NCBI RefSeq assembly: GCF_007655135.1
Contig: NC_045128.1
Span: 2,294,001 to 2,358,000, forward strand
Direction of reading: 5' to 3'
Length of the DNA: 64,000 bases
Source: Punica granatum
Taxonomy: Eukaryota; Streptophyta; Magnoliopsida; Myrtales; Lythraceae
The stretch's first letter is position 1, and every line of letters begins with the position of its first letter. The notes under the pieces are model-generated. The model ran no database searches and had not been told where the DNA came from. It was given only the letters and a program-made list of their open reading frames with translations. Shown here one piece after another: positions 8,979 through 42,813 of the stretch. A program made the translations under genes and the position numbers.

Positions 8979-9486
8979 CTAAAATCAAAATAATTGCGAA
9001 TATTAGCAGCTAATATCAACAGCTAATAATGGAAATCTGTATCAAGGATTAAGATAGTCACTGAAACATGCAAAAGGCACAAACAGAACATAACAAGACG
9101 CAAGATAATACTAGGGTAGTCCAGGTTGCAAAAACGCAACCTGGACTAACCAATTAACCGGTATCAGAAATTACCATCCCTGTCCCTAGGTAACGTGCGA
9201 GTGATGCATACGAGTGCTAGATTACTCTATAATTATTACGAGATTTCCCGGTGCCCAATAAATGTTACCATGCAAGATGCCGGAATCACCGAAATGCTAA
9301 GGTATCCTAACAATTACTTCAATATCACTCTGCAAAAATCTCGTCTTTCAGCTCAGCAGAATTCAATTTTCAGTGAATGCATGTCACAAGGACTCTTATA
9401 TAATACAAATAAAATTTTCAAGTCGAACTTAGGCCAAGAAGTGCTTGAAACAGGCGCAGAAACAAGACCAGAAATCACTAACTTAC
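8979..9486. other. Left inversion breakpoint interval (fused intron remnants)
   Basis: This interval lies between the first exon of the PHD/MBD-like C-half and the last exon of the ArgRS N-half. Under the inversion model it joins part of a PHD/MBD-gene intron to part of an ArgRS intron. It holds a perfect 13-bp hairpin at 9117-9148 and no coding sequence that I recognise. Confidence 0.55.
9117..9148. repeat. Perfect 13-bp stem hairpin, 6-nt loop
   Basis: The arms TAGTCCAGGTTGC (9117-9129) and GCAACCTGGACTA (9136-9148) are exact inverted repeats around a loop of AAAAAC. The hairpin lies within the left inversion breakpoint interval and not at the end of any recognised transcript. Confidence 0.9.
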
Positions 9487-11022
9487 AATGCTCGATATGA
9501 GTAACTTTCCTACGAGTCTTAGCTTCATCAAACAAATCCACAAGTCTAACCACTTCAGCACTTCGGGGTTCGGAACCTTTTGCCATCTTGACCAAGAACA
9601 AGACCAAATCCAACATGGTCTGCCCTGGGACATAAATTACTTTCGGCAGGAAGCCAACCAGCTCGTTTGGCCGCCTGAAGAAGGTGAACACAGGAATGTT
9701 TCAGAGATGGTTGTATTAACCTTAGACAAAGTTATGGTGCATGATCATATATCCGATTCAAGCATGATGCAAACTGGCGAAACAAAAAAGGAACAAACCA
9801 TAGACCAGTACACTGGAAAACCACGTGTGGATCTTGTCATTAACCTTAAACAACTTTTGGAAGTGTTGAGACTGACCAACATCAGTGACATATATTATCC
9901 GCTCGGCTTTTTCTTCATTGAGATGATACCTGAGTCCTAGCATGATGAATCTGTCAACATATCTAACACTGGAAAAGTTAAGAGGAAATACTTGTTGAAA
10001 CTTTCAAGGAAATCTAACCAAAGAGCTGTGAGATCAGTTGTTGCATAGTTGTAACCACCATTACTCTTTACAACAATAAGAGGTTCATCGAACCCCTCAA
10101 TACATATCACACGAGCGCCTTGGCTCTCTTCAACTAATCCTAGGCTGCTCAAGCTTACCAGTACCCCAGGAACATATGGATTATAGAAGCTTTCACCCTG
10201 GCAACAGGAAAGAAATGAATGAACACTCAAAATTGAGAATTCAAATGGGTAACTACAAAATGAATGAAGTAAAATAGATGTGTAATTTCAGCAAAGTTTT
10301 AGAAACACCTTGTCATTCAACCAGGATTAGTCGGAATGTATAAAAATAGCTAAATACATAAGATTATGGCGAATAAATAATCAAATGATACCTTTTCCTC
10401 TAACGTAACTCCAAGGCGTTGATAGACCTTATCAAACTCCCTTCAGCTTATGTCACAAATCTGTGACCATGCCTTGCGGTACTTTGGCTCCCCACTCTGC
10501 AACATTAAAATAGGCACAAAATGACCGATCATGTCAGAAACATCTAACATTGAACAATGAACTTTAGCATCTTTGTTCCACTTCAAGTCCAAGAACTAAA
10601 GTATATGAACATCTATGTATAAAAATAAATGAGAAAATTGAATTATGGAAAGAGATCTTAAGCATATGGTTCTTGCGAGTGCTAACCTGGAGTTTAACAA
10701 CAGCGCTTTGTGCCCTTTTCTTGAAAGGGGGATCCTCATCAAATCTCTGCTTTGACGCTCTATAGAACACCTAGCAAAACCCAAATGAAATCATAACAAT
10801 AGTCGTGTCGTGACATTATTATCATATACTTTCTTTTCCCAATTAAATTTATCCTCGCATTCTCCCTCCCTGTCACGCTTGGTGCAAGGACTCCTAGCAA
10901 ACAGCTCTAAGAAACAGAAAAATTAGCATATTGCAGATAACCTGTAAACCTCCAATGACAGTTCGGCTTGCTTCTTCCCAATCCAGAAGCTCTTCGAAAA
11001 GGAACTCAATTAGCATCCCAAA
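9487..11022 (-). pseudogene. Arginyl-tRNA synthetase, catalytic-region half (broken)
   Basis: Six consecutive minus-strand exons of a class I arginyl-tRNA synthetase: 11022-10942 (FGMLIEFLFEELLDWEE), 10770-10687, 10496-10392, 10197-10019 ([26 protein letters not shown]), 9929-9845 (EEKAERIIYVTDVGQSQHF) and 9674-9487 ([26 protein letters not shown]). The enzyme would charge tRNA-Arg. Two lesions are visible: an in-frame TGA at 10445-10443, where relatives have arginine in the S-R-R-E-F stretch, and one extra base in the G/C run at 9564-9568 that shifts the frame after FRT. The N-terminal exons, including the HIGH motif, are missing upstream, where mobile DNA begins near 11.37 kb. The C-terminal exons lie at 42814-45072 in the other orientation. 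Once the extra base is removed, this half ends in phase 1, matching the start of the other half. Confidence 0.9.
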
Positions 11023-11373
11023 CTGCGAGATCAATCAACCAAAACCAAATGAATGTGAGCACTTGAGATAAGGATGATTTCCTAATGACTGTCTTACTTC
11101 AAGACAATCTTTTTTATTTCTCCTCCAATGTTAGTGGTCCCAAATCACCAATTCTTTTCGAGAGGAATGACACATGCTTGAGTTCCCCAATCACCAACAT
11201 GGTTTCGACACAGAACCTCAACATTTCAAAACACAAGCATGCGCGCCAATGCTTCAAATTCACACTCAATTACCAACTCCAACTCCAGTTTCACCCCAAA
11301 TTTCCCCAATCAAACGTGATGATCAGGCCATTGCCAATCGATATATGGGCAAGGATTCGAGATTGAATGCAAT
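11023..11373. other. Remnant ArgRS intron or flank
   Basis: I see no further ArgRS exon here. The sequence is AT-rich, with overlapping short open frames that show no family resemblance. Confidence 0.4.
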
Positions 11374-11945
11374 ATACTTCACTAGAGGGATACAAATGTC
11401 ATAGTGACATTAGAAAATTACAGATTAAACAGAAGTATATGAAATATTAATATGACCAGATTGGATTTCATTGAGAAAAGGTTCAGTATAGACTCTGTGG
11501 ATGCAATATATGTACATAAAATTGATATGTTTAATAATTTTACAAGGAAAAAGGGAAATTATATTTCCTACATAAAAAAAAGGAGGAGAAAAGCTCAAGT
11601 GAAGGAACACCTTAACAAAATTAGTCATAGAAAAGCAAAAAATTAAAGGGGAAAAAAGAATCGTATATTCGCGCCGTTACAAAAAGAAAAAAAAAGGAGT
11701 AAATTACAAAAAGTGTATATATAGTAATATTAATTGCTTGTTCTTCATATGGCTCCAAGGCATTTTAGTTTTGATACATTTTCATCAAAATAACTTCTCT
11801 TGCCAATTGCTCCCCAGTCTTGTATTAGGTTTATGGGCTATTTTCAGTTATGGAAAAAAAATTAAAACCTTGACAAATAAAAAATAAGCACTTTTCACTT
11901 ATAAAAAGTAAAAAGAAGAAGCCCCTTTCATTATTGCGTACGTAT
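11374..11945. repeat. Dispersed repeat X, copy 1 (left part)
   Basis: This segment matches 53157-53703 in the same orientation, starting TACTTCACTAGAG and continuing through GTACATAAAATTG and TCATTATTGCGTACGTATG. The 53-kb copy then jumps to sequence matching 13719-13857, skipping about 1.77 kb. No coding sequence is visible in this left part. Confidence 0.8.
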
Positions 11946-12122
11946 GGTGCAGTGTATTGGTTCATGCTTGATTGTCCATAGAATTTGGGCGATATGGGAT
12001 TATATGATGCATATGAAAAGTTACTCTAGTGAGGGATATTGATGATTTCTTATTAACATATTCATTTAAAGAATCATAAACACATTTAAGTTGCCTTTGC
12101 TTTCCTCTAGAAATTAATTCTT

Positions 12123-13690
12123 AGGCTATCTCCAATATTAGTCTCAATTTAGGTCTCTAAACTAGGCTCACTGCTACCACATAAACGCTAAGCTCACTTA
12201 CCAAAAAGAAAGACTCATTATTCCAGTCATAGTCTCTGATTTCATATCTCTTAATGGGCCCCACACACTTATTTATATACATATAATGAATGTACATAAA
12301 AATAATTACTAATTATTTTTATTGATAATAATTTTATTGATAATGAAATATAATTAATTAAATCGTTTTAATAATTAAATAATTATTTAATTAATATTAA
12401 TCAATAATAATTAATTATAAATGCTTGATAAAATTCATAAAATAATTTAAAAATTACATGACGGGAAAAAAAATACACGTGCAACGAAAAGATAATTACG
12501 CGAGCAATGAAAAAATTACGTGAGCAAAGAAAAAACTACACGAGCAATGGAAAAATAAATTTAATTGACATTGTAGGTGTCCCTCTCATGCTCAACAATC
12601 ATATTATGCAATACGATGCAAGCTATCATGATCAATCCAAGCTTATTCGCGGACCACGATTGAGCGGGGCCATTAATGCAAATCGAGCCTGCAAAACCCC
12701 GAAAGGGTGCTCTACATCCTTCCGTACCCTTTCTTGATGTTTGGCAAATAGCTGTCTATTCTCTCCTTGAGGTTAAGGGATTGATTTCACTAACGTTGAT
12801 CATTCAGGATATATATATACCATCTGTCAAATAATATCCCAAGGTATAGTTGGTGTCATTGATAGTATAATATGCTTAGGGAGCACGGTCTTCTAAGACA
12901 TCATCAAGAACCGGTGATCGTTCTAAAATGTTAATGTCGTTGTTGGATCTAGCCACGCGAAAAAATGAATGTCATATCCAAAGGTCAGGTCCCGCCACCG
13001 CTTCAAGTATTAAAGTTAGAACTCCATGGTAACCTCTATACATATCGTGCCCTGCCTTCGAGCAATTTTTCCACTTCCAATGCATGCAATCGATGTTGCC
13101 CGTCATGCCCGGAAAACCGCGTGACGTTCTAATTCGTAGTAGGTGTTGGAAATCTTCTGCATTAGACTAGTGCAAGTACTGAAGGCCGAAAACCGAGATG
13201 ACTCATTCAAAAAACTTGTAGAGGCATTCAGTCGCGGTGATCTCTGCTAGCTGGAGATATTCGTCAACGGTGTCAGAACCTATTCCATAGGCCAAATATG
13301 CATGGCCGGGTGCAATTTTATAGTGGAGATAGGCCTACTTTGCCTACAACGTCTCTTCTCTGTGGGAAAAATAGATCAACACTTGAGAGGCTATCCACAA
13401 TTCGAAGGAATAGCTGCTTCCTCATTCTAAAAACTTCGTCGGAATATCTAGACAGACTACATCAGCTCGTCAATGAAGTAGTCTAGCATAAGCTGCTTAT
13501 GACCTACTTCGCGATCCCTGTCGGTTGTCTTCTTTTTCCGTCTGGAGGAAGAGCTTTCACCATAGACGGCCTACTCCATCTTCTAAAGGAGGTCAAAGAC
13601 GCATGGATCCGTAGCATGTTCAACAGATCTTCCATCCAGCCCAACGAATCCATGGACATATTATTGGGATCATTAGGGTTTTCAGACATA
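12123..13690 (-). mobile_element. Decayed PIF/Harbinger transposon with transposase relics
   Basis: Minus-strand reading from about 13690 to 12560, in shifting frames, gives the order of a plant PIF/Harbinger (HARBI1-like DDE) transposase: SDEVFRMRKQLFLRIVD near 13440, RRDVVGKVGLSPL near 13350, the N-terminal part of the DDE region near 13090, NDTNYTLGYYLTDGIY near 12830, and NKLGLIMIACIVLHNMIVEHERDTYN near the 3-prime end. Many stops and frameshifts make it inactive. The sequence GGCTATCTCCAATATTAG at 12123, preceded by TTA, may be a terminal repeat. A weak partner, TATTGGAGAGGGAG, lies near 13979. The ends are therefore tentative. Confidence 0.75.
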
Positions 13691-13714
13691 TTTTGAAGGA
13701 TGTGAATTGGAGAT

Positions 13715-13857
13715 GAGGGGATATGAATGGGAGATGATATGAGGATATTTGGGGTGAAATTGGAGTTGGAATTGATAATTTAGTGTGAATTTGAAGTAGG
13801 AGTTGAAAATTGGATGTGAAATGGAGTATTTATATATGTAATTTTTTTAAAAAAATA
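13715..13857. repeat. Dispersed repeat X, copy 1 (right part)
   Basis: This matches about 53700-53830 (shared stretches include TTTGGGGTGAAATTGGAGTTG). It lies just upstream of the Harbinger transposase start on the minus strand. At 53 kb the same sequence is fused directly to the 11374-11945 type sequence. Confidence 0.7.
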
Positions 13858-13869
13858 TTATACACAGAT

Positions 13870-14095
13870 TGTGATATCTCGATACGGATAACTCAAGCCT
13901 CTTATAAATACCTCTCCAAGTACTCATAAACCCTAACTTCAATTTCTTTTACTTTCCGAGCACACTCTCATTTAGGTATTGGAGAGGGAGATCGAGACTC
14001 CCCCTCGATCCTCCCCTTTTCGCAAGTCGCTTGTGGACACTCGAGGCTCGTGGCCTATACGTGATCAAGGTTCGAAAACCGAGATCCTAACAATA
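13870..14095 (+). repeat. Possible old LTR or promoter-like fragment
   Basis: The segment contains a TATA-like box, CTTATAAATAC, near 13893. About 70 bp later come CT-rich and polypurine stretches, and it ends with ATCCTAACA near 14095. This resembles the U3-R part of an LTR, but no partner or target duplication is visible. Most of 14096-14287 has no recognisable feature. Confidence 0.25.
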
Positions 14096-14287
14096 AACAT
14101 ACCCATTTGGACTAGATCTAAATGTACCTAGCTATATTTCTTTAAAGTACTTGGCTCATACGAAGACATACAGCAAATCTAATCCCATAGTTGGAGCTAA
14201 TAACGATGAAATCTTCCATTTATTTCATATACATGGCATATTTTGTTGTCAATATAGCGGACACAGTGTTGCTCAAGACGAACTGTG

Positions 14288-15222
14288 TGCTAGTTCCACG
14301 GGGCGCAACGGAAGCGAAAAGGAACAGAAATTCAAAATTTCCTACCCGTGAAACTAATTCCAAGACCTACTAGAAGAATAAGAGTAAATAAAAACGTACC
14401 TGGAATATTTAAAGTTGTCGACCGAGCGTCCCACGCGTGACGCCTCTACTGGAATCCACACCGACTTTGTCGACGAGTTTTCGAGATCGGCGGTGCTAGC
14501 GACCAACACTCGAAAGAAACACCGATGCGACACCCGAAATTTTCAGACTAATGGACCTAATTTGAGTTGAACAATTCAACCCAAATTATATATATTTTAT
14601 ATGCACACATATATGCACGTACATATATATATTAGCATATATATATATAATATGTGTGCGCTTTTATATATAAGCATATATATATATAATCATGCTTACT
14701 GCCCCTTTTTATAAGCAATATGGGGGGGTGAAGACGAAATCCCAACCGATGTGGGATTTAGGGAATTAAGGTTCCCTTATGACATGTGTCCTTACACATG
14801 TTAATCCACATAAAAGCCATGTGTCACCATATTAATCGTGCATCAATTTGGTCCATTTAATCTAATAAATCGAGTCTAATTAATCGACAAATTTAATCTC
14901 ATTAAATATCCAATTAATTAGTCGCACCATAAATCATCTAATCTCTATTAGATGATTTTATTGTTTCAAAATATCTCGTCAATTTAGTCGTAGTGTGTGA
15001 CCCTGTAGGTTCCCAATTACGTTGACAGTAATATCAAAATCTCTATTTCAATATTACAAACAGTGAGTGGCATCTAGCAATGCATCACTGTTACTCAAGT
15101 AATCGGAAAGTCAATTTCTCGACGAACCTTGTGACCTCCGTTACCGTGTAATATAATGAAATACATGTCATATTACAGAACTGATGATAGATTGCATCTA
15201 GGGCATACACCAATTCCCAACA
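14288..15222 (-). repeat. Copia 3-prime LTR
   Basis: 935 bp, TG...CA bounded in plus-strand reading, identical to the right LTR except at 14735. It contains nested TA-rich stretches near 14585-14690. Confidence 0.97.
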
Positions 15223-15240
15223 ATCTCCCACTTGCACTAG
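15223..15240 (-). promoter_or_regulatory. Copia polypurine tract
   Basis: On the minus strand, GTGCAAGTGGGAGAT directly precedes the 3-prime LTR. Its position and purine richness fit second-strand priming. Confidence 0.7.
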
Positions 15241-18200
15241 AGCCAATCTGGCATCTGTCTAATGCCAATAGATCTAGTGTGAGCCTCGTGCTTGCGCTGC
15301 ACAAGAGGCTTCGTAAGTGGATCTGCGAGATTCTCATCTGTTGGTATTCTGCATATCTTCACATCTCCTCTGTCAATAATCTCGCGAATGAGATGGAAGC
15401 GTCTGAGTATATGTTTGGATCGCTGGTGAGACATGGGTTCCTTAGCTTGCGCAATGGCTCCATTGTTGTCACAATAGAGATCCACTGGGTCTGCGATGCT
15501 AGGAACCACAACAAGTTCTGTCACGAACTTCTTGATCCAAACGGCCTCTTTTGCAGCGTTAGAGGCAGCAATATACTCGGCCTCTGTGGTAGAATCGGCT
15601 ACTGTCTCCTGTTTGGAACTCTTCCAACTCACAGCACCTCCATTCAGGCAGAACACATACCCTGACTGCGATCTACTGTCGTCCTTATCGGTCTGGAAAC
15701 TAGCATTGGTGTAACCTCTTACAACGAGCTCTTCTTCGCCTCCATATACCAAAAACATCTCCTTAGTCCTTCGTAAGTATTTAAGGATGTTCTTTACTGC
15801 AATCCAGTGTCTTTCACCTGGATCTGATTGGTATCGACTCGTCATACTCAAAGCATACGAGACATCTGATCGAGTGCATAACATAGCATACATGATGGAT
15901 CCAATAGCTGACGCATATGGAATCCTATTCATGCGGTCCCTCTCCTCTCGAGTAGAAGGACACTGAGCCTTCGAAAGGCTTATGCCATGTAACATAGGCA
16001 GCGACCCTTTCTTAGAATCCTGCATGCTAAATCGCCGAAGCACTTTATCTATGTATGCACTCTGACTTAAGCCAAGCAGTCTCCTGGATCTATCTCTATA
16101 GATCCTGATACCTAGCACGTAGGTAGCTTCGCCTAAGTCCTTCATAGAGAAACACCTTCCCAACCAAGTTTTCACAGACTGTAAGGAAGGAATGTCATTC
16201 CCGATCAGAAGTATGTCATCTACATATAACACCAGGAAGATTACTATGCTCCCACTAACCTTCTTGTAAACACAGGGTTCATCTTCATTCTTGATGAAGC
16301 CAAACTCTTTGATTGCATCATCAAAACGAAGATTCCAGCTCCTAGAAGCTTGCTTCAGCCCATAAATAGACCGTTGTAGCTTACAAACTTTTCTGGCACT
16401 ATGTGGATCGACAAAACCCTCAGGTTGCGTCATATACACATCCTCGAGGAGATTCCCGTTCAGGAAAGCAGTTTTGACATCCATTTGCCAGATCTCATAA
16501 TCATAATAAGCTGCAATTGCAAGCAAGATCCTGATGGATTTAAGCATAGCTACCGGGGAAAAGGTTTCGTCATAGTCAACACCATGAACTTGTCTGAAAC
16601 CTTTTGCCACAAGTCGGCCCTTAAAGGTAATCACATTACCGTCCATGTCAGTCTTCTTCTTGAAGACCCACTTACACCCAATGGGTTTTGCCCCTTCAGG
16701 TGGATCAACCAAAGTCCATACTTGGTTAGTGTACATGGACTCCATCTCAGATCTCATGGCCTCCAGCCATTTCTCAGAGTCTGGGCCTATTACGGCTTCC
16801 GCATAGGTTGTAGGCTCATCATTATCTATGAGCAATACGTCATTGTCTTGAGTCACGAGAAATCCATATCTCTCGGGCTCATGACGTATCCTACTAGACC
16901 TACGAGGCTCCTGTGTCACCTGTGTAGAAGATTGTGCCACAACAACTTGTGATACTTGTTCTGCAACACCGCCCGTCGATTGGTCAATGTCATTTTGTGG
17001 TAGAACTTCCCCAAGTTCTAATTTCCTCCCACTAGTTCCTTTGGAGAGAAACTCTTTCTCAAGGAATACCGTAGTTCGAGCGACAAACACTTTGCCCTCG
17101 ATGGGATTATAGAAATAGTATCCTCGAGTTTCCTTAGGATACCCCACAAAGTAACATTTGTCCGATTTAGGGCCAAGCTTATCCGAAGATAATCTCTTCA
17201 CATAAGCTTCGCAACCCCATATCTTTAGAAAAGACATCTTGGGACGCTTCCCATACCACATCTCATATGGTGTCCTTTCAACTGATTTCGACGGAGCATT
17301 GTTTAATATGAGAGCAGCTGTCTGTAGAGCATATCCCCAGAAGGAGTCAGGTAAGTTTGCATGACTCATCAAAGATCGAACCATATCTAATAAAGTTCGA
17401 TTCCTCCTCTCAGCTACACCATTCCATTGTGGTGTTCCAGGTGGAGTCAGTTGAGATAAAATCCCACACTGTTTAAGATAGTCAGCGAACTCATAGCTCA
17501 AATATTCACCTCCTCGATCTGATCGAAGAACTTTAATGCTCTTACCCAACTGATTCTCCACTTCATTCTTAAATTCTTTGAACTTTTCAAAGGATTCAGA
17601 TTTGTGTTTCATCAAAAACACATATCCAAATCTACTGAAATCATCAGTAAATGTAATAAAGTAGAGATACCCACCTCTAGCAAGCTTGTTCACTGGTCCA
17701 CATACATCGGTATGTATGAGAGCCAAAAGATCACTAGCTCGCTCACCTTTTCCGGTAAAAGGGGCTTTAGTCATTTTCCCCATTAAGCAAGGTTCGCATG
17801 TCTCGATCGATTCTAAATCAAACGAGTCCAGTAATCCATCCTTATGGAGTCTAGAGATGCGATTCTCGCTAATATGGCCTAAACGACAATGCCAGAGGTA
17901 AGTCGGGTTCGAATCATTAGATTTGAGCCGTTTGGTTTCCACATTATAAATAGGCGTATCTAGATCAAGAACATACAGACCATTACTTAAATGTGCACTG
18001 CCATAATATACATCATTCATGTACATAGAACAACACTTGTTCTTTATAGTGAAACAAAATCCCTTCTTGTCCAAACAAGAAACAGATATTATGTTTCTAC
18101 TAATAGCAGGTACATAATAACAGTCGTTAAGATCTAATACAAGCCCAGTAGGTAAAACTAGGTGATAAGTCCCTACAATTAATGTAGCAACTCTTGCTCC

Positions 18201-19190
18201 ATTTCCAACTCGTAGGTCCACCTCGCCCTTTGTCAACGATCTACTGTCCTTTAGGTCCTGCATATTTCCACAAATATGAGCACCACATCCGGTATCTAAT
18301 ACCCAAGATGTAGAAGTAGTAGATACATTAATCTCTATAACATGGATACCTGAAGTGGAAGTCTCACTTCCCTTCTTCTTCTTCAACTCTTCCAGGTATA
18401 TCTTACAATTCCACTTCCAATGTCCAGTGTTGCCACAATGGAAGCAGTAATCATTCTTCGCCACCTTGGCTTTAGGCTTCAACGCACCCAAGTCAAAATT
18501 GGATGCACCTTTAGCCTTCTTGCCTTTACTCTTGCTCTTGCCCTTTCTTTTGGTCCCTTGGACCATTAGAACAGACGTCCCCTTGTTGATATCATGCTCA
18601 GCTGTTCTCAACATGCTAAGCAGTTCAGGCAATGGTTTATTGTAGTCATTCATATTATAGCTCATAATGAACTGACTATAACTGCTGGGCAGCGACTGTA
18701 GGACTAAATCTGTGGCCAACTCTTGACCAAGAGGAAATCCCAGTTTTCCCAGAGTCTCAACGTACCCAATCATCTTGAGTACATGAAGACCCACCGGGCT
18801 ACCCTCAGTCAACCTTGCTTGAAAAAGTGCTTTAGAGATCTCGAATCTCTCATGTCGGGCCTGCTCTTGATAGAGCTGCCTGAGATGCACGATCATATCG
18901 TACGCCTTCATGTTCTCGTGTTGCTTCTGAAGCTCCGAGTCCATGGTGACTAACATGAGACATCCGACGTTTACGGCATCATCATGATGCTTACTATAAG
19001 CATCTTTCTCAGCTTGGGGGGCATCGTCAGGCGGTGGCGCAAGAAGAGGTTGCTCTAAGACATATAACTTCTTTTCTTGGGTGAGAACAATTCTCAAGTT
19101 TCGATACCAACCAAGGAAATTATTCCCTGACAGTTTGTCCTTATCAAGGACGGATCGCAAACAGAAAGTACTAGAAGTGTTCCCTGCCAT
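15237..19190 (-). CDS. Copia gag-pol polyprotein
   Basis: A single frame runs from 19214 to 15237 (1325 codons). The ATG at 19190, starting MAGNTSSTF, is the more typical gag start, eight codons inside. In numbering from 19214, the order is: gag; zinc knuckle C257-C270 (CFHCGNTGHWKWNC); aspartic protease with DTG at 307-309; integrase zinc site H442/H447/C473/C476; integrase catalytic D503, D566 and E602; reverse transcriptase with D912 and YVDD at 997-1000; and RNase H with a TEAEYIA motif and a DNNGA stretch. The order protease-integrase-RT-RNase H is diagnostic of Copia (Ty1 type). No stops or frameshifts are seen. It encodes everything needed for its own reverse transcription and integration. 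Confidence 0.96.
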   Translation of the reverse strand: MAGNTSSTFCLRSVLDKDKLSGNNFLGWYRNLRIVLTQEKKLYVLEQPLLAPPPDDAPQAEKDAYSKHHDDAVNVGCLMLVTMDSELQKQHENMKAYDMIVHLRQLYQEQARHERFEISKALFQARLTEGSPVGLHVLKMIGYVETLGKLGFPLGQELATDLVLQSLPSSYSQFIMSYNMNDYNKPLPELLSMLRTAEHDINKGTSVLMVQGTKRKGKSKSKGKKAKGASNFDLGALKPKAKVAKNDYCFHCGNTGHWKWNCKIYLEELKKKKGSETSTSGIHVIEINVSTTSTSWVLDTGCGAHICGNMQDLKDSRSLTKGEVDLRVGNGARVATLIVGTYHLVLPTGLVLDLNDCYYVPAISRNIISVSCLDKKGFCFTIKNKCCSMYMNDVYYGSAHLSNGLYVLDLDTPIYNVETKRLKSNDSNPTYLWHCRLGHISENRISRLHKDGLLDSFDLESIETCEPCLMGKMTKAPFTGKGERASDLLALIHTDVCGPVNKLARGGYLYFITFTDDFSRFGYVFLMKHKSESFEKFKEFKNEVENQLGKSIKVLRSDRGGEYLSYEFADYLKQCGILSQLTPPGTPQWNGVAERRNRTLLDMVRSLMSHANLPDSFWGYALQTAALILNNAPSKSVERTPYEMWYGKRPKMSFLKIWGCEAYVKRLSSDKLGPKSDKCYFVGYPKETRGYYFYNPIEGKVFVARTTVFLEKEFLSKGTSGRKLELGEVLPQNDIDQSTGGVAEQVSQVVVAQSSTQVTQEPRRSSRIRHEPERYGFLVTQDNDVLLIDNDEPTTYAEAVIGPDSEKWLEAMRSEMESMYTNQVWTLVDPPEGAKPIGCKWVFKKKTDMDGNVITFKGRLVAKGFRQVHGVDYDETFSPVAMLKSIRILLAIAAYYDYEIWQMDVKTAFLNGNLLEDVYMTQPEGFVDPHSARKVCKLQRSIYGLKQASRSWNLRFDDAIKEFGFIKNEDEPCVYKKVSGSIVIFLVLYVDDILLIGNDIPSLQSVKTWLGRCFSMKDLGEATYVLGIRIYRDRSRRLLGLSQSAYIDKVLRRFSMQDSKKGSLPMLHGISLSKAQCPSTREERDRMNRIPYASAIGSIMYAMLCTRSDVSYALSMTSRYQSDPGERHWIAVKNILKYLRRTKEMFLVYGGEEELVVRGYTNASFQTDKDDSRSQSGYVFCLNGGAVSWKSSKQETVADSTTEAEYIAASNAAKEAVWIKKFVTELVVVPSIADPVDLYCDNNGAIAQAKEPMSHQRSKHILRRFHLIREIIDRGDVKICRIPTDENLADPLTKPLVQRKHEAHTRSIGIRQMPDWL

Positions 19191-19877
19191 GGTAACTACC
19201 ATAGAAATATACAAAATAAGTATTATGACACAACAATATTTAATGAGGACTTTATAAATATTGCTCCCACTATTTATATCAAATCAATGACCCTCAACAT
19301 TGATTCAGAGAATATCATTCTCATAGTAGCTCAAGATCCATATCTCACCAAGCTCTGAGTCAGCAAGGGCTGATTCACCCAGAACTGGCTATTTAGGTAG
19401 GGAACTCACTTTCCCAATTGCATCACATGCAACTCTTGATTAGTTGAGTGAATAACTCCTTATTCAAATCTATCTTATAGATCGATGCCCAACTACATGC
19501 CTCTGAACTCCTAATCCTATTAGGCTTGCTCAGTTAAGTCCGACCCACTGGTAAACACAACGTCTTACTAGGATAGATAAGGGCATCCTGCGAAGGCAAG
19601 GTCTACACACTCATCGATCTTGGTCTTGACGAGCGTTACACGGTGGAAAGATATGGACTTAATATTTTGAGGGATTTGATTAACATTTAATCGATCTCAC
19701 TATACACTATTATGTAACTATTACATAATAGTCCACACGTATAACTATTATACTAACACAACTAGGACATAGTCCATGTCTAACAGTCATGCACCGCAAA
19801 TATCAAACATAATCATACCAGTACCAAGCATAAAATCATATTTTATGCTATTATCTACTCAGATTCTAACTAGCTAG

Positions 19878-19889
19878 TCTCTGATACCA
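19878..19889 (-). promoter_or_regulatory. Copia primer-binding site (tRNA-iMet)
   Basis: On the minus strand, TGGTATCAGAG lies two or three bases inside the 5-prime LTR. This is the usual complement of the initiator tRNA-Met 3-prime end in plant Copia elements. Confidence 0.9.
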
Positions 19890-19891
19890 AT

Positions 19892-20826
19892 TGCTAGTTC
19901 CACGGGGCGCAACGGAAGCGAAAAGGAACAGAAATTCAAAATTTCCTACCCGTGAAACTAATTCCAAGACCTACTAGAAGAATAAGAGTAAATAAAAACG
20001 TACCTGGAATATTTAAAGTTGTCGACCGAGCGTCCCACGCGTGACGCCTCTACTGGAATCCACACCGACTTTGTCGACGAGTTTTCGAGATCGGCGGTGC
20101 TAGCGACCAACACTCGAAAGAAACACCGATGCGACACCCGAAATTTTCAGACTAATGGACCTAATTTGAGTTGAACAATTCAACCCAAATTATATATATT
20201 TTATATGCACACATATATGCACGTACATATATATATTAGCATATATATATATAATATGTGTGCGCTTTTATATATAAGCATATATATATATAATCATGCT
20301 TACTGCCCCTTTTTATAAGCAATATGGGGGGGTGAAGATGAAATCCCAACCGATGTGGGATTTAGGGAATTAAGGTTCCCTTATGACATGTGTCCTTACA
20401 CATGTTAATCCACATAAAAGCCATGTGTCACCATATTAATCGTGCATCAATTTGGTCCATTTAATCTAATAAATCGAGTCTAATTAATCGACAAATTTAA
20501 TCTCATTAAATATCCAATTAATTAGTCGCACCATAAATCATCTAATCTCTATTAGATGATTTTATTGTTTCAAAATATCTCGTCAATTTAGTCGTAGTGT
20601 GTGACCCTGTAGGTTCCCAATTACGTTGACAGTAATATCAAAATCTCTATTTCAATATTACAAACAGTGAGTGGCATCTAGCAATGCATCACTGTTACTC
20701 AAGTAATCGGAAAGTCAATTTCTCGACGAACCTTGTGACCTCCGTTACCGTGTAATATAATGAAATACATGTCATATTACAGAACTGATGATAGATTGCA
20801 TCTAGGGCATACACCAATTCCCAACA
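19892..20826 (-). repeat. Copia 5-prime LTR
   Basis: 935 bp; differs from the other LTR only at 20339. Together with the CTGTG target duplication it defines the right end of the element. Confidence 0.97.
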
Positions 20827-20839
20827 CTGTGATCCTACC

Positions 20840-22626: not shown

Positions 22627-22634
22627 GTTCCACC

Positions 22635-26699: not shown

Positions 26700-29600
26700 A
26701 TGGAGGGAGGAAGGAGATTCAGGAGGTTTGGGTTACATAGGGGACTAGCACTCAATTATCCTCTTAGCGTGTTACCTCTGCACAATGTGTCCCGGGCCTC
26801 AGCCGCCACAAGGCCTCGTCTTTCCTGCACCTTATCCTGTTGGTAGGTTACAAATTTTGTTCGTTGATATTCACCATGATTATTTCTTCTCCATTCCTGT
26901 AGTTTCGATAAAATTTTGTCGATTGTGGCCGGTTTTTTCAGGTATTGCGACCTCCGGATATATGCATTTACCGATCCCATCTTTCGTATTGGCAGAAGAT
27001 ATGCAAGGTGCTTCTCCTTACCCTTCCACCTTTAATAATTCCCTTGGTTTATTTAGATCCTGCTGCAGAAGTTTCTTGCTGACACGCACTTTCCATATAT
27101 GCAGGTATTTGCGAGTTTGGTTTTCAATGGGAGTGGGCTTTGGAGCAACCTTAATGATTGTTCTTGCGTTGGTTTGTGCCGAAGTCTTCATTCAGCATGA
27201 ATAGTTACTAAAGTTCGTGTATTTTAAGTAATCCATCAGATGATTCTCTTATCATTGCTAAAAGGAAAAAGTTCATTCATGTTGGACAATTGGATGGTAA
27301 CTGTTAACAATAGTAATATGCTAAAATTGGGATGTCGTAATGTAGAGACATAACAATGAATACAGATCCATGTCCTTGTTTATACCAAGTATATGTGCCG
27401 TGAGCTCCACATATTACGAACCTTGACCTTCTATTAACCTCTTATGAATTTGCAGCTTCTCCTTTGGGAGCTAGCAGGGTTCCTACATCTTCACAAAAGC
27501 AACGCCAATCTCAACAAGCTTGTTTTTGGATTCTCTCCTACAGTTACTTATTATTACCCTTCTTCATGATGAATTGATTCATGACAATCCAGTTGTTCCA
27601 TGTCCAATACTGTGATATTCGTGGCAGGTCTATGGTTTGAAAATTTCGCTTGCTGATGCCGGATTTATAGTTTTGTCTACCTTGATTTCCGTATGTGCCC
27701 ATGAAATTGGGCATGCTATTGCTGCTGCTAGGTGAGTACCATTAACCTTTTTTGTTTTTTAAGCAGTTCATCTTTAGATTGTATAGCGAGTAACTAAAAT
27801 TGTGTTACCTCCATTTTCTAGAGGTGAGGATCCTGAAACCTAGTAATAGATAAATTTGAAATGTCAAATTCATAAGTATAGATCATGTGTCATATTGTTC
27901 ATAAATCTGTGATAAAATTAAGTCGGAAGGCTAGAATGATATAGAACACATATATGCTCTATGTAATTTATTGGTGTATTTGAAAGGAATCAATGTAGTA
28001 ACTGAGCTTCAATGAAAAGCAGTGAAGGAGTACAGGTGGAACATGTTGCCATTTTCATCGCAGTTCTGTTTCCCGGTGCTTTGGTGGCTTTTAATCAGGA
28101 TTCACTGCAGGCGTTACAACGTATATCTGCTCTACGCATATATTGTGCCGGTATTTGGCACAATGCAGTGGTGAAACTGCAGTCTTTTGTCTCATTCCTT
28201 ATGTGCATATATATCACAGAGTTCCGTTTTTCACGCGGTCCATTTCATGTTGACAGTTATTATATAGTCAATAATTTCTTAACAGTCACTTTTGCACCTT
28301 GTGTACTCATGAATATTCATCTCCCTGCAGTGTTGTGCAATCTCTGGATTGACGTTGTTGCTCTTGCCGTCTATTTTGTTTCCTTTGTATGTGCATGGTC
28401 AAGGCCTAATGGTACGTGGTGATTTTTAGATACACTTGTTTCCTCTATAGATGCATTATGCAATACGGGTTAGAAGAAAGAAACTTACATGACTGCAGAA
28501 ACAAGGACAAAAGACATTAATATTAGGCTTCTTCTATCGACTGGACATTCATGCTGCGGCTCTCGTTTCATGAGCCTGAACAAATTGAGACTTCTGGAGA
28601 CCTATATTCAAGAACACCACTTGCACTACACATTCCTTCTTTTTGCTGATATTATCACATTACACAGGTTCTGGAAGTACCATATTCTTCACCTTTGCAC
28701 GGGTATTTGTCTCCAGGCGATATGATTGTGGCTGTAGATGACATACCCATTCGTGATAAACAAGATTGGGTGGAGGCAATTTCTTTAATAGACATAGATT
28801 CGAATCAGGAATCAAATCATACTCAATATGTGGGGAAAGGCAGCAGCAAGAAGGGTTATTGTGTTCCTTTGGGCTCGTTGGAAGAAAGAGAGAGCATACG
28901 GCATGTGGATAATGTATCTACTTGCCTTGACGATCTTACCGCCTTCATTAGCACGCCTTGCTCTGATATGGACACCACAGATTATAATGATGGTAGCGGT
29001 AGCGCAGAAGAGCATGCACGCTGCTTGGATGCTAAGGAGGTTATCAAGCTCAGGAAATGTGGTGATGGGTGGTCCCACATTGTCAACGGCAGCAGCTGCC
29101 TCTGTTTGCAGGTTTCGCTCCAAGCTAAGCTTCAAGTTGATGATTGTTACTTATAATATTGAAATACATAGACAACACTCGGCTTAAATCGAGGTTGTTG
29201 GACCTCAATCAATAGATAGCCCTTTATCTAGGCTTGCTGTAATCTTTGTGTAATTTTAGATCCAAAATACTTATTGTTTCTAAAAGCCTTTTGACTAATG
29301 CAGGATGAGTCTTGTGTCACTCCAATAAAGAAACAGGGTTCGATGTGGGTTGAGGTCACATGCTTCAGCTCGTATGGTTCTCCTGCGTGCTCTCGAATTG
29401 AGCAAACCCCGTTGCCCACTTCTCAAATCTCAAAACTTACGGAGAGAAACTGCAGTAGGAGTTTTGTGTATGTTGGGGATCTCTTCTCATTGTCAAATTC
29501 AGTTCACTTTACCTCATATAGACCACGTCTCTGGGCATCCAGTGTTGGTGCTTACGTTCCGTATGTCATGGAAAAGATTCTGATTTTGACATACCATGTT

Positions 29601-29896
29601 TCTCTTACGTTAGCCCTTATGAATACTTTGCCAGTAAGTCTCGAATGCAATTCTCTTAATTTTTCTCAGTGCTTTTGATTTGATGAGTTTGTGCTGATTT
29701 AAATTTGTGTCTCTTTCTTGCTTATTATGCTTCTCAGGTTTTTTTCTTGGACGGGGAATCCATCTTAGAAGTGAACTTAAGCTACTGTTCTTGGTTGAGC
29801 CATCGGAAGAGTAAAGACCTTCTTCAATTGATCCTTGCTGTGGGAACCTTGATTTCAGTACTTTCCTTTGTGAAGATGATTGCTAAAGGCTATTGA
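26700..29896 (+). CDS. S2P: Site-2 protease homologue (membrane-bound transcription factor peptidase)
   Basis: An intramembrane zinc metalloprotease (M50 family) that releases membrane-tethered transcription factors, expected in the Golgi/ER system. Exons are 26700-26842, 26942-27007, 27105-27171, 27456-27542, 27628-27731, 28023-28170, 28331-28411, 28668-29111, 29304-29633 and 29738-29896. All are GT-AG and in phase, totalling 542 aa, close to plant homologues. The start MEGGRRFRRFG matches the arginine-rich N-terminus of relatives. Catalytic features: HEIGH at residues 146-150 (zinc-binding HExxH) inside a hydrophobic helix, and NTLPVFFLDGES with D495 (the third metal ligand). Exon 8 (residues 233-380) carries a PDZ-like lumenal region (HGYLSPGDMIVAVDD) and cysteines typical of S2P. 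Several hydrophobic segments surround both motifs. No lesion is seen. It converges with the GT14 gene. Confidence 0.95.
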
Positions 29897-35812: not shown

Positions 35813-35857
<45 letters not shown>

Positions 35858-36871
35858 TTATGATGGGATTTTTTTATTGAAGGGAAAAAAAAAAAAGAGG
35901 ATCATAATCTTAACGAACATTTGATGGTGTTTTATTTAAGTGAAAGCAATGCCACCAAACTGAGTTGGGTAGTAGCCCGCCAAGGTTGCTTTGTTTATGC
36001 ACTCAATACTAACCGATGTTGTGTCAACTTCAATTGACATTTGCTCACTAACCATACATAATTTCTTCCTGTCAGCCCAACGACAACGATCAGCATTTAA
36101 TGAGGTGGTGAATATATAATATAATACATCAAACACACACAAAATAAATAAATAGAATGACAATAGTAAATTTTTTTTGGGTAAAAGAAATGTAATACTA
36201 GACTGGCTTGATATAATTTTGATAACATCGGATAATGATTCATTTAATGTGGTATCCATGTATTCGGACGGCCACCTAATGCTCTCCCATGTTACGATGT
36301 GGAATCGTTTTAATAAAAATCGTGAACATAAATCAGTAAGTCTTTTGGAAATAAAAAAGTATATATGTTTGATAAATTATATAATTTCTCAATGAATATT
36401 TAATTTTTTATTGATAATTAAATTGATCGTCATCTCCATTAATACAATTTTTTTTAATGCACCCCTGCAGCTCACGGGCTGTACTTATTATTCTACGACC
36501 GAGATGATATTTTCTTCCCGCTAGGAATCAGGCTCATGCATGGGAGCCCAAGCTCATGGTGTTGCATGCAGTGACTTGCCAACTCTGTAATCAGGAGAAA
36601 AGAATGAGAGCCGAGAGACCACTCAATTCTTTGCGTGCAGTTTAATTTAATACCCTAAAAGGAAAGGATTTGAGAAATTAAAAGGAGTTGAATAAGGAGG
36701 TCGGTGCATGGTATCTATCCAAAGGGGCCGGCTGATGGTCGGTCTAGTGAGCTGAAACTGGGCAATGTTGTCATCTCAAAAGGCAGAACTCAATCATGCT
36801 ATTCTAATTTCAAACTTGCATGGAATTCATATGCATTTAACTCTGTTGGAGTGCTCGTAACTTGAAGATCT
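34748..36871. other. GT14 upstream region and AT-rich spacer
   Basis: The first about 600 bp are GC-richer and purine-rich (near 35165-35220), as expected for the promoter and 5-prime UTR of the GT14 gene. Short open frames there have no family resemblance. From about 35350 the sequence is AT-rich. A (TA)n(GA)n microsatellite lies at about 35814-35855 and poly(A) tracts follow. No other gene is recognised. Confidence 0.5.
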
Positions 36872-37485
36872 ATATATGGGGATGAAGAGCAATCGATTGA
36901 GAAGATACGGACTGTCTTGCGCTATTATGAACCGATGGCTCAAAATTTCGCCTTATTAATCTCTCGGTCAGTTCCCGATGTATATATTTATATTCATGTG
37001 CATTACCGTACCGACTGCGACTTTGCTTGAACAGTTTGCAATATCCTCGTAGTGCATTAGCGCATGCTGAATTCACTTCTTTTTTGTCAATTGCCTGGCG
37101 ACTTTTACTGCAGGAGCTTCTGGACCTATGTGAACAACCAGGTTCCCGCAGCATTAATCGAGCTCATATAGTTACGTCGGGGTTGAGTGTTTAGCCTCAT
37201 GGTCATGCTTGATGAACGTGGTTGGATGCTTTGGTGGGATTTTAGAGAGGTTTCACAAGCTTGGAAGGAGCAATAAGATCTCAGAAGCGGTTTCCAAGGA
37301 AACTAGCGAAGCTTGCAACGTGTTATTCGCCCACCCGAATAACTGCATCACACTATGCGATAACTTATTCACAAGGTTAAAGACTCTCTGCCTGCCATAG
37401 AGACTGTCCCGTCCAGAGAAATAAGGTCCTTGGAGGATCGATACATATATATTTGTCTGCAACAATGTTATTGCTAGCTAGTATT

Positions 37486-37523
<38 letters not shown>

Positions 37524-39215
37524 GGAAGATCCCGCACTTTCCAATGGTAATATTTTGGTCGATCTTAAACTTTTCATCATCATTTACAGGATACTAGTGA
37601 TTTATTTCGGAAGGACTCGAATGAGTACTAGAATTTTATGATATCTTACATTTTATTATTGAATATATTGCACCATATAGCCTAACGTTGATTTATATTA
37701 TTAGATTTATTCAATTCCTAAATAAATGGTTAATATTCGGACAACAACGTGTGTATATTTCCGATTGGTTCTTGGATGAGATATGGGCATGGGTTTGAAG
37801 CTTAATCAGGACAGAGTCGTTGAGGAGCAACAACTTATGATTTTGGGCTCGTTCTCGAGATAGGTTTTTTCTAAACTAGTCAAGTTAGTCGATATTCTTC
37901 AAATTTCGATGTCTTCTCCCCGGAGTCTCGTTCTTTGACTGTTCTAGTTAATATGGTTTGGTTGAGTTGTAAATCTATTTTCTATGGTGTGCTAAAGTAG
38001 TTAGATTTGATGGTGATGGTGAATCTTATGGACACAAGAAACATCTTACCGATTGATTAATCCTCTTATTTGCTTAATTACATCAAAGCATACACACATA
38101 TTCTATATTATATACATGTATTTTTAGGTAGGATATGTATAATATATATTCATGTAATTAAGCATACATATTATGAAGATTCAGGTGCGTGCGTAAATGT
38201 AATATCATAAGAGTTATTCGGGAAAAATGAAAAACAGAAGAAGAAATTATTATAGGAGTCTCTCCCGGTACACAACGGTCCAAAAAATCAATGAAAAAGA
38301 GAAATGATACACGAGTATAATTTATCTACAAACGGCTATTTATACATAATTTTACCCATCCATACTTAATCAGTATTCCGGTACCATAGAGTACTCTCTT
38401 CTTTATATTTGGCAAGCTCAAATTTGTAAGCATCTTAAATGGCTTGCAATCTAATCCCGTGTATACGGATTTTTTTTTTTGTACGTGTATCGTCCTTCAT
38501 TTCTTTTCGACTAAAAATTACCATATAAGATTCTGAAATGTGCTCGATACATATTTGTAGTCCGTGATTAGCATTCAGAATGTTTGATTAAGATCACAAT
38601 ACGAATCAATAACTTGCGATTGACCAACGTCATATTAATTAATTCACGGTCAGCATCAAACGTTACACAATCTATGATCGGGGATTTGGTTTATAGCTAG
38701 CTATGACTGATGAGAATTGTCTCTTCCGTGATTTTTTTCTTCCACGAAACCCGATCGATTCCATATAGAAATTTGCAAATCTGTATTGATCACAATTATT
38801 GTTGATTGTGAATCAAATGATAATATTTGCCGTTAAGACTCCTTATAGCTAGTTCGGTTTTTCTGAAGGCTTCGGCTTAAAGACTAGGCCGTTTTGGGCC
38901 GAGCCGACCGCTTGGCATTATTTCTTGGGGCCTCGGGCCATCTATCCTTTTCACGGGCTGCTGGTCTATGAAGAAAGCATGTTCGGCCTAGTTTGAAGCA
39001 TATGTGTACAGCTTATTAGTTTGAATTTGAAGCATGCATACCTAAGCTTTACCCAAAAAAGCATGCATGACATGACAGCTCGGGTAGAGTATCATTTATT
39101 AAATAAAATAAAATAAAATAATAAATAAAAAGAGGGAAAAGGCTTAATGGGTGATGTTCAGTTAAATCTACATACTCCATCTCACGTGTAATGGTCCGAC
39201 TGCAATATAAATAAT
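36872..39215 (-). repeat. Arm B of the inverted duplication
   Basis: Reverse complement of 1-2215, from ATGAAGAGCAATCGATTGAG at the left to the GGTCCGACTGCAATATAA region at the right. The plus-strand open frames here (for example 37209-37400, starting MMNVVGCFGGILERFHKLG) correspond to minus-strand sequence in arm A, where the frame is broken by small indels. A longer TA microsatellite (about 37487-37520) is one of the length differences. Arm B directly adjoins the truncated XPG fragment. Confidence 0.85.
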
Positions 39216-39437
39216 CCGTGAATTTGTGGAGCTTAATGAAAAATAGATGACGGAATTAGTTTGAAGCATGTTTAGCGCTAGCAAGATGGTGTGTTGATTC
39301 TCATCCACTCTCTTTTACTACGAAGCAGAGCATGGATCTAACATACAATCGACCACAACAAAAAATTAGGGAACGATGAATCAATCATGGAAGTCTTGAT
39401 GATAATTGAATCAACAAAACAACAAGAGCACGCTTAC

Positions 39438-40069
39438 AACTCATCTAGCATTTCCTGATCATAACCCCTTAAAGCCTCGCCATCGTCTTCAAGATGATGG
39501 TTCGGAACCTCGGTCTTTCTTACCCTGGAATCATTCATCCGTCTCTGATTCTCTATATCGTTCGCCAACTCCTTCTGTCTCAATGACTTAAGGTGCCACA
39601 GAAATAACAGCAAGCAAAGCAGACCATCATGGACGAGACAACAGGGGCAGAAAGTTGCACTCCATTGACATGGCGATGGAGCAGAGGAAAGGTCAACTAA
39701 ACCACAGCCCTAACAGATTAACGGACTCACATGATTGAGGAGCAACTTCTCGGCCGTTTTCCGGATTTTGGCCAGGGCATTCTCCCGCTGCCTCCGGCGA
39801 GCGATTACATTACTCCTCTTGAGGGCCGGCGTGCCACCGTCGAAGACGAACGCGGGCTTGGTCCTGAGGAACAGGAGCTTGCAAATGCGGCGGAAGAACT
39901 CGAGCAGGTGGGCGTTCCGCGCCATCTCCCCCTTCTTGTCTCGCATCGCCTTCATGAACTGGACCAACCATATGCTCGCGTCGATGGCGAGCCTCTTCCT
40001 GGCGAGGGTCTCGACGGACACACGGCGGCCGACGGGGGCCAGTGTCTCCCACACACCTTGCACTCCCAT
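39438..40069 (-). pseudogene. XPG/UVH3-like endonuclease, exons 1-2 only
   Basis: Exon 1 (40069-39731, 113 codons, donor CAT|GTGAGT) encodes the XPG N-domain: [53 protein letters not shown] and a basic tail RRRQREN. XPG/Rad2 proteins are structure-specific nucleases of nucleotide excision repair. Exon 2 (about 39592-39438) continues with LRQKELANDIENQRRMND and ends YDQEMLDE before a GTAAGC donor. Its expected 3-prime splice site reads GGCAC rather than GCAG, so splicing may be impaired. Plant XPG proteins are well over 1,000 residues, and nothing further is present: within about 220 bp arm B of the inverted duplication begins. I call it a truncated fragment. Confidence 0.9.
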
Positions 40070-41637
40070 AGTTCTGGCGTTTGCTTTGCTACGCTTCTCC
40101 TCCCCTCCGATTTGTTGATTCGGTCAAAAAATAACTGAGAATTTGGTATTTGTCGCAATATATGTATTCCCATACAATATATGAGAATTTGGTTTTTTAT
40201 GTCGTTTTCATATATATATATATATATATATATATTAAATTTAGACATTAAAAAATCGTTGTTAATTAAATTATTCTATTAAATAACTGATAACACCATC
40301 CAAGAAATTTGAATCAAAATCTTCTTAGTGATAAATTCTATGTACGTTATGCAGTTAACATGTTTGTATAAGGGTCACCTCATAAAATCTGCGCATGGTA
40401 TGGTTCAAGATCTAATCTAAATGAAGGCCTCCTTTGATTTAAGTTCATAAACCTTTCTTATAGCCCAAAGGGATAATGCATAGAAGCCTTTGGGCTTTTC
40501 ATTGATCTCTCGTAATTGGGCCTATCCATTTCTCACTATGCATGCTAAAACTTTCGATGCAAAAAGAAGAAAAACCCAGACGATATGACGACGTCGTTTC
40601 GAGCCAAGTGCTGGTCGTTGACCACACCATAATCCACAAGTCAAACGTCTTCATCATCTTCTTCCAGTTCCACTCCCTTCGCTTCACTTCTTACTCTGCT
40701 CCGACGACACAAATCTGTCTCTGCTCTCCTTCCATGAAAGGATGCTCCTTTCTCAGTGCTGTAACCAGCACCACCGCTCTCCTATCTGCCCGAGAACCAT
40801 ATCCCATAAATCCCGCCTCAATCCTTCATTCACCTTCCCCTTCCCCTTCCCTTCACCGCCTCTCACCTCTAAGACCCCCAGAACGCCCGCCGCTAAGCTC
40901 CTGACCGATAGGGGAAAAAGAACTGTTCAGCAAAATCATGTCCATCAAAAGCAACCAAAACATAATTAAGCATCTTTTTTTTTTTTTTACTGAAAATACA
41001 AGTATGCCATTAAATAATGAGCGACGGTCTGAAATATCTTGTACTTAACAAATTATTAAAAATATTTTGTAACAAAAACTGGGAAAGAAAATTAGATAAT
41101 ATTCTGTGGGGGTTACAAATTAGACTACATTCCATTTTATCTGAATCTTCTAAAAGAATTGTTTAAAAAAAAAATAAAGTTCGTTTTTTTCTTCCTCCAC
41201 CCTTCCCTATCACTTACTTCATTAATAAATGACCCCCCTGCTTTATGGACCTGCAAATAGCAAACATAATAATTAACATAAATATATCCCAAAAAAAAAA
41301 ACTCATGAACCAAATTAACATGTTAAATAACATCGGGTACCTCAACATATCAGGGTGAACACCTGTTTGAATATATGGAAAAGAAAAGGAGTAAAGTATG
41401 AGATTGGAATTAGTGCTGGGAATTAACATTATATCAGAAGAGATAGTAGTATGATGGCATGGATGATAAAGAAGGAAAGCATATCGTCATGATAAGAGTC
41501 ATCAATATTAACGACGGCGATTGCTTTCCAGTACTTCTGAAAGCAATGCATGAATGATGTTAACAATAACAATGAAAACACATGAGCCAGTGTCAATATA
41601 AGACGTTCTATACATCCAGCTAGATCTACGGCAACCA
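40070..41637. other. Spacer upstream of the XPG fragment
   Basis: Holds the XPG 5-prime flank and a TA microsatellite near 40210-40234. A GC-richer stretch at about 40730-40930 has short overlapping open frames rich in S, P and T, resembling a transit peptide but without any continuation. Beyond 41000 it is AT-rich. No gene is supported. Confidence 0.4.
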
Positions 41638-41766
41638 TAGAATCTGTGCCGAATGGATCTGCCATCTTCTTCATCCGGCCGGCACTACAACAATCTCCTC
41701 TTCAAGAAGGTGAAGAGAGTGGCTCTTGTGCTTCTGGCTACGGAGTTGGATGGCAATGCTAATAGT
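41638..41766 (+). pseudogene. Duplicated exon fragment of the PHD/MBD-like gene
   Basis: About 129 bp matching 7790-7925 as reverse complement (shared landmarks ATAGAATCTGTGCC, ATCTTCTTCATCCGGCCGGC, AAGAAGGTGAAGAGAGTGGC and GGAGTTGGATGGCAATGCTAA). It lies just before the N-terminal half of the same gene, so a piece of a late exon has been copied upstream of the first exon. Confidence 0.85.
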
Positions 41767-41837
41767 CAGGGCATTTTTACCTGATCCAGTAAATCATAAA
41801 CCAACAACTGACCTCACCCACTTCAACCACTTCCACG

Positions 41838-42684
41838 GCATCAGTTCGCCTCGCCGTTGGCTGCCTCCGCCTCGGCCTCGTCCTAGTCCACGTCCACGTC
41901 CGGTCCATCTATCAAATCCATCAACTCGTGGAGCTGCTCAAAGATGTGATCAGCTTGAGCATCGTCGATGCCGCGTGCGTCCAGTACGATTTCGTACTTG
42001 CATCGATACCGAGCCTTCAAAGCTATGGCCCAGCGTTCATCTTCTCCCCAGATGATGACGACGTCGTCGAGCGCCTGGAGTTCGGCGGAGTGCGTTGAGG
42101 TTGGCGAGTTGCCGTTCGTCTTCCCTCAGAGCAATCGCGAGGTTGCGGCACCTGCGAAGAACCAGGGTGGAGGGGTGGAGGTCCCCGAGGTGCGCCCCGA
42201 GCGGATGAAAGACCGCCATGAAAGGTGACTTGATGCGCGCTGAGCGAAAAGCTCTGCTCTGAGCGGAAGCGACCGACTCAGAGAGTCAACTCGCGCCTAC
42301 CTCCCTCGGCATCGACATCAACGAGATCCCCTCCTCCTCGAACTCATTCGACGTCGTCCGGACCTACCAGGACGTCCCCGACCTCCCGCCGGAGCCCGCT
42401 GAAGACCCTGTGCTAGCCCGTGGGCCCATCACTTGCGGCCGGATGGAGGACGGCGGCGGGCGCGTGTTCTACATGGCATGCGCCGGGTTACGCGGGGTCG
42501 GAGATATAGACGGGGGGGGGGGGGGGGGGGGGGCGACTGGGTGGGCTGGAAGTGTACCAAGGATGGAGTGAAGAGCCAGGGCTGGCCCCTAGGGTTTAAG
42601 TCCAAGAGGAAGCCGGTCTTTGACATGAACGCTTCGCCTCCCAGTGACGGTGACGAGGCCGGCGAGGGCTCGACCTCCTCGAGG
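41838..42684 (+). pseudogene. N-terminal half of the PHD/MBD-like chromatin gene (broken)
   Basis: Plus-strand exon reading CLRLGLVLVHVHVRSIYQIHQ, LVELLKDVISLSIVDAAC, SYGPAFIFSPDDDDVVERLEFGG, then (after a frameshift near 42095) VGELPFVFPQSNREVA and RPERMKDRHER. A stop follows there, then LMRAERKALL, a further stop, SLGIDINEIPSSSNSFDVVR and part of a degenerate PHD finger. The run of 22 G at 42512-42533 sits in the finger. The end, GWPLGFKSKR and MNASPPSDGDEAGE, closes at a donor TCGAG|GTATGC at 42684. The next exon in the family (KCTLGD...) is not here but at 8978 on the minus strand. The donor phase (AG) fits that exon's first base. A likely chromatin reader when intact; now a pseudogene. 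Confidence 0.65.
42512..42533. repeat. Homopolymer of 22 G in a former PHD-finger exon
   Basis: An uninterrupted run of 22 guanines between GAC and CGACTGG, placed where PHD cysteines and the linker would be encoded. Confidence 0.95.
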
Positions 42685-42813
42685 TATGCTTGTCCACCTG
42701 CAGCTCTGTCATCCTTTCCACTCGTGATGAATTGCGGTTTTGTTAGGGCTATATAGCGATTGAATATCATATAAGATGTATTTCAGGGGAAGAAAAGAAA
42801 GATAAATATCCAG
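42685..42813. other. Right inversion breakpoint interval
   Basis: 129 bp between the donor of the PHD/MBD-like N-half and the acceptor of the ArgRS C-half. Under the inversion model it joins the other portions of the same two introns represented at 8979-9486. Confidence 0.55.

Follow-up and report, generated by a model that had tools for sequence, protein, structure and literature searches.

A 33.4-kb inversion in Punica granatum, read from two divided pseudogenes and an 8-bp sequence common to both breakpoints

Introduction

How do two genes come to lie in one stretch of chromosome as two halves each, on opposite strands and 33 kb apart? The question is raised by a stretch of 64,000 nucleotides from Punica granatum (contig NC_045128.1, here C2, positions 2294001-2358000; the window in what follows, with positions counted from its first letter), in which a copy of the gene for arginyl-tRNA synthetase (ArgRS) and a copy of a gene with PHD and MBD domains, which we take to be MBD9-like, are both divided in this way. 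An earlier note on this DNA had proposed that one inversion of about 33 kb separated the halves and that turning the segment back heals both genes. Our analysis agrees with this proposal, both joins falling within introns of the two genes, and we consider a single real inversion of 33.4 kb to be the best explanation of the locus, with a probability of about 0.92.

Location of the breakpoints

We searched the genome itself (320.4 Mb, 474 contigs) with window positions 8900-11100 and 42250-43610, while positions 7300-8899 were compared with the fetched loci only; all references for comparison are paralogous copies in the same genome. The searches retrieved a better-preserved ArgRS copy at C3:2.880-2.884 Mb, an additional partial ArgRS copy at C2:12.778 Mb and a better-preserved MBD9-like gene on C2 from 1.994 Mb on. 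The C3 ArgRS and C2 MBD9 copies appear intact, as judged by open stretches and exon alignments. The exons of the former contain the Pfam domains tRNA-synt_1d and DALR_1 (the class I (R) catalytic domain and the DALR domain) and those of the latter PHD and MBD, and the sequences in the window were assigned by alignment to these copies (for MBD9 at 87-90%). When one 20-kb stretch around each intact locus was compared with the window, only the gene itself and simple repeats matched.

At both junctions homology changes from one gene to the other within an intron. BLAST homology to the C2 MBD9 gene runs to 42776 on the plus strand and starts again from 9405 on the minus strand, while the match to the C3 ArgRS gene breaks off at 9397 and is taken up from 42822. 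Since a better-preserved paralogue exists for each of the cut genes, both breakpoints could be placed within an 8-mer: the intervals of about 500 and about 130 bp within which the earlier note had located them, correctly, were narrowed to one common sequence, ATATAAGA, by the switch in homology and by alignment. It lies at 9394-9401 (minus strand), with MBD9 intron 1 below it and the ArgRS intron above, and at 42769-42776 (plus strand), with MBD9 intron 1 before it and the ArgRS intron after. The inverted block is thereby defined as 9402-42768, 33.4 kb, to which the 8-mers at its ends are added. Among 200000 random pairs of window positions, sharing of at least 8 bases in inverted register occurred with a frequency of 0.0002, so that the match is unlikely to be due to chance.

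Re-inversion of the block restores both sequences, relative to their paralogues, at reciprocal junctions, sharply for MBD9 and less so for ArgRS. When MBD9 intron 1 is rejoined at the 8-mer, its alignment to the intact intron is gap-free through the 18 bases that precede the 8-mer and the 27 that follow, and the intact intron carries ATATAGGA at the place of the 8-mer (7 of 8 bases agree). The rejoined ArgRS intron aligns across the seam to the C3 and the C2:12.78-Mb copies, with a difference in the length of a TA repeat at the seam itself. The splice phases at the joins are those described previously, T|GT for ArgRS and AG|A for MBD9, with the correction that the last base of MBD9 exon 1 is 42683, so that the exon is one base shorter than had been thought, and that GTATGC follows it; in the ArgRS exon beyond the join, 6 additional bases stand beside the CAG, and the phase is kept.

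These seams bear directly on the possibility that the block was mis-oriented during assembly and that the real chromosome is uninverted, which the earlier note had held to be the main alternative. Such errors are common in scaffolded assemblies, although nothing specific to this locus points to one. After a scaffold flip one would normally find gaps or long repeats where the pieces join. At this locus neither the window nor the 100 kb on either side (264 kb altogether) contains an N, the large inverted repeat of the area (dupA and dupB, described below) lies away from the breakpoints, and at the 8 bp where the parts meet the MBD9 intron is complete to the base; a second copy of either junction was not listed in the searches of the genome. 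With seams of this kind, mis-orientation becomes very unlikely.

Mechanism of the inversion

In the mechanism that we propose, a single event broke the chromosome twice, within intron 1 of the MBD9-like pseudogene and within an ArgRS pseudogene intron, and the broken ends were rejoined in reverse at the 8-bp ATATAAGA common to both sites, with no visible loss or gain at the seams. The 8-mer would have been present at both sites beforehand, and the event would have followed the MBD9 duplication (dS, the synonymous divergence, about 0.18). Microhomology-mediated (alternative) end joining is the likely repair pathway. The locus resembles known products of this pathway in the short identical sequence at both junctions and in the lack of filler at the seams, and differs from them in that the same 8-mer is retained at both junctions; 8 bp is on the long side for such junctions.

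The same two inverted 8-mers would also be produced by a variant of this inversion, in which staggered breaks left an overhang of 8 nucleotides at one site that was filled in, so that the 8-mer was copied by the event. The ArgRS intron argues against this variant, since the fit to both other copies is better with the 8-mer kept than with it removed in all six comparisons, the margin being 2 to 11 score units; these comparisons (two copies under three scoring schemes) are non-independent and the evidence is modest. We regard staggered breaks as possible, and a good deal less probable than end joining at a pre-existing 8-mer.

A transposon-mediated inversion was also considered and rejected, as no element end is found at either seam and the MBD9 seam contains no inserted bases. 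For ArgRS this assessment refers to the TA-repeat difference at the seam and to about 20 unmatched bases 14 positions away from it, which were not searched on their own.

The ArgRS pseudogene

All twelve exon segments tested from the C3 copy (from the catalytic-domain exon, C3:2879968, onward) match the window with their order kept, segments 1-6 on the minus strand from 11022 to 9485 and segments 7-12 on the plus strand from 42822 to 45068. By alignment to C3, complemented on the left by tblastn, the 5' half occupies 9402-11255 (minus strand; exons for the catalytic domain, while the gene's first exons are missing) and the 3' half 42777-45069 (plus strand; the last part of the catalytic domain, and the DALR domain), and on the 3' side homology to the C3 locus extends to 45932. 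No stretch of residues common to both sides was found with tblastn, in line with the earlier observation that the gene splits without overlap. From a query of the 165 N-terminal residues only residues 140-165 match, at 11255-11178, and the 5' match ends at 11255, beside a repeat arm that starts at 11252. Relative to the intact frame, the left half carries one frameshifting indel and one stop and the right half one frameshifting indel and two stops; the extra base noticed before at about 9568 is indeed present.

The repeat that adjoins the ArgRS copy on its 5' side (11252-13852) has inverted arms at 11252-11308 and 13740-13796 and a related copy at 53137-53830; by eye we presume that it is of the PIF/Harbinger transposon type. 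A dispersed repeat of about 750 bp (43619-44370; about 40 of 927 candidates scored and listed, with 81-92% identity) is inserted in an ArgRS intron. To the right of the window, C2:2399018-2399151 is an ArgRS-like fragment, with 79% identity to window 44403-44544 and a weak tblastn match to ArgRS as well.

The MBD9-like pseudogene

MBD9 exon 1 is located at 42270-42683 on the plus strand, and the following two segments at 8973-8334 and 8134-7329 on the minus strand, the third covering 804 of 1107 bases. By alignment to the C2 gene, the copy is divided into 42270-42768 (plus strand), with exon 1, the PHD part, and the start of intron 1, and 7329-9393 (minus strand), with the rest of intron 1, exon 2, the MBD part, and a truncated exon 3. 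It starts 20 bases past the first base of the intact ATG and has no start codon; it stops at 7329, and the open stretches of the intact gene extend about 7 kb further. About 1.2 kb of the intact intron 1 is absent, at 9117/9128. Exon 1 has two frameshifting indels and no stop, and the left part seven frameshifting indels and one stop. Further stops and frameshifts in both genes had been reported previously, and together the window copies of ArgRS and MBD9 carry 11 frameshifting indels and 4 stops. Both are pseudogenes, and they are not processed (retro) pseudogenes, a candidate that we rejected since introns are kept in both. In their introns, frameshifts, stops and truncated ends they resemble duplicated (unprocessed) pseudogenes, from which they differ in that each is split over two strands 33 kb apart.

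Divergence of the halves

Measured against the intact paralogues, dS is 0.32 and 0.348 in the halves of ArgRS and 0.175 and 0.183 in those of MBD9; these pairwise values, like the dN/dS ratios below, include the changes of the intact lineage. The halves of each gene agree in divergence while the genes differ, and by this measure each gene is present as one copy and not as separate duplications. That the four pieces never were contiguous here and arrived as separate duplications is scarcely credible for two reasons: they would need complementary intron ends at the same 8-mer, and both pieces of each gene would need equal divergence. The area does contain other copied fragments of different ages, namely an XPG exon, a 599-bp piece, dupB and fragment F (see below), which speaks for such an origin. 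The earlier note had named intact copies elsewhere, together with an origin of the halves by separate duplications, as grounds for giving up the inversion. Intact-looking copies of both genes do exist elsewhere; the halves, with their joins at the 8-mer and their equal dS, are most unlikely to be separate duplications.

The dN/dS ratios (0.33 and 0.27 for the halves of ArgRS, 0.50 and 0.68 for those of MBD9) suggest that the ArgRS copy was constrained for longer than the MBD9 copy, and that the latter evolved near neutrality. The MBD9 copy is a fragment that probably never worked; given its truncation at both ends, the inversion was in all likelihood only a bystander to its loss and had no effect on it. 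The reading of the earlier note needs correction in this respect, since the inversion did not break two working genes: the MBD9 copy has neither a start codon nor the greater part of the 3' region, and both genes have intact-looking copies elsewhere. The inversion may or may not have killed the ArgRS copy.

Functional fusion genes were considered as a further outcome and rejected. Both hybrid introns have GT and AG ends, but the splice from MBD9 exon 1 to ArgRS reads AGG TAA and that from ArgRS to MBD9 exon 2 reads T|AA; since either hybrid splice would run into a stop at the join, we do not expect a fusion protein.

Fragment F

A second sequence of the MBD9 pseudogene, fragment F, is found by alignment at 41616-41781 (plus strand) and corresponds to 8511-8490 joined to 7925-7780. 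It shows 7 differences from the window MBD9 copy over 140 compared sites, and 21 differences from the intact gene are common to both, which indicates that fragment F was copied within this locus. After re-inversion it is placed head-to-tail with MBD9 exon 1, some 490 bases upstream, an arrangement typical of local duplications; it is now 33 kb away and reversed. Exons present on both sides had been named in the earlier note as an argument against the inversion, and an MBD9 piece does in fact occur on both sides, which we interpret as a small local duplicate. If fragment F predates the inversion, the inversion would be younger than about 5% divergence.

Points that weigh against a single inversion

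Several observations count against the explanation by a single inversion, or against its details. Fragment F places about 165 bp of MBD9 exon sequence on the side of exon 1, so that a strict separation of the halves does not hold. Of the two joins, that of ArgRS is the less sharp: the C3 copy has a TA-repeat expansion there, and about 20 bases of the window, starting about 14 bases beyond the seam, are in neither of the other ArgRS copies. Among the best 15 of 1845 cut pairs (a grid of 41 x 45), each of the nine pairs within the 8-mer reaches a score of 279, but four pairs offset by one to four bases reach 284, 281, 281 and 280, and at least two others tie; the breakpoint is thus located to within a few bases, with the 8-mer as its simplest description. 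The synonymous sites behind the dS values are few (96 to 308 per half). Finally, the comparison is with paralogues in the same genome, so that the uninverted order is reconstructed from them and not observed.

Duplicated sequences around the block

A repeat of 2.5 kb, dupB, lies inside the block (36874-39419, minus strand), inverted relative to dupA, which lies outside the block at the left edge of the window (1-2209, plus strand; the match to dupB already starts 218 bases before the window). The two arms, identified by alignment, have 234 mismatches over 2500 aligned sites (about 9%). A long inverted repeat of this kind could suggest that the block was turned by recombination between its arms. 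This would break below 2.2 kb and at 36.9-39.4 kb, but the breakpoints lie at 9.4 and 42.77 kb; being outside dupA and dupB, they practically exclude this origin. Re-inversion makes dupA and dupB direct repeats.

Other copied pieces are found close by. dupB has 88-91% identity to dupA and also 83% to C6:7568409-7569836; window 39416-40126, a stretch of an XPG_N exon that overlaps the dupB match by 4 bases, has 92% identity to C2:1938225-1938950; and window 40308-40906 (599 bp) has 97% to C2:1788452-1789044. A speculative reading, to which we give little weight, is that this part of C2 is a hot spot into which fragments from within about 0.55 Mb were copied repeatedly (MBD9 from 1.994 Mb, the XPG exon from 1.938 Mb, the piece from 1.788 Mb and dupA at 2.294 Mb, with divergences of about 3% to 19%), and that microhomology-based repair also made the inversion. 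If so, the patchwork and the flip would both go back to one repair habit.

Age of the inversion and other features

The inversion may be old, as had been thought, but its age is bounded only from above, by the MBD9 duplication. The young Copia element noted earlier inside the block is there, at 14288-20826, with 935-bp long terminal repeats that differ at one site and CTGTG on both sides, probably a target-site duplication; it does not date the inversion. Also within the block, 28012-29156 contains M50-peptidase-like and PDZ-like pieces with Pfam scores below the curated cut-offs, probably the protease mentioned in the earlier note. At 5135-5330 there is a perfect tandem duplication of 98 bases.

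Meaning of the inversion

As in other small cut-and-rejoin inversions, two breaks and a reversed segment leave gene halves at opposite ends; the present case differs in that both loci are now pseudogenes, so that the event has to be reconstructed by comparing decayed copies with paralogues in a better state. Events of this kind are ordinary, and this one affected degenerate gene copies and shows no sign of a functional effect; the general understanding of inversions is unchanged by it. What it offers is a well-resolved inversion, with the repair signature visible at both breakpoints, that is usable as a clean marker for comparing accessions.

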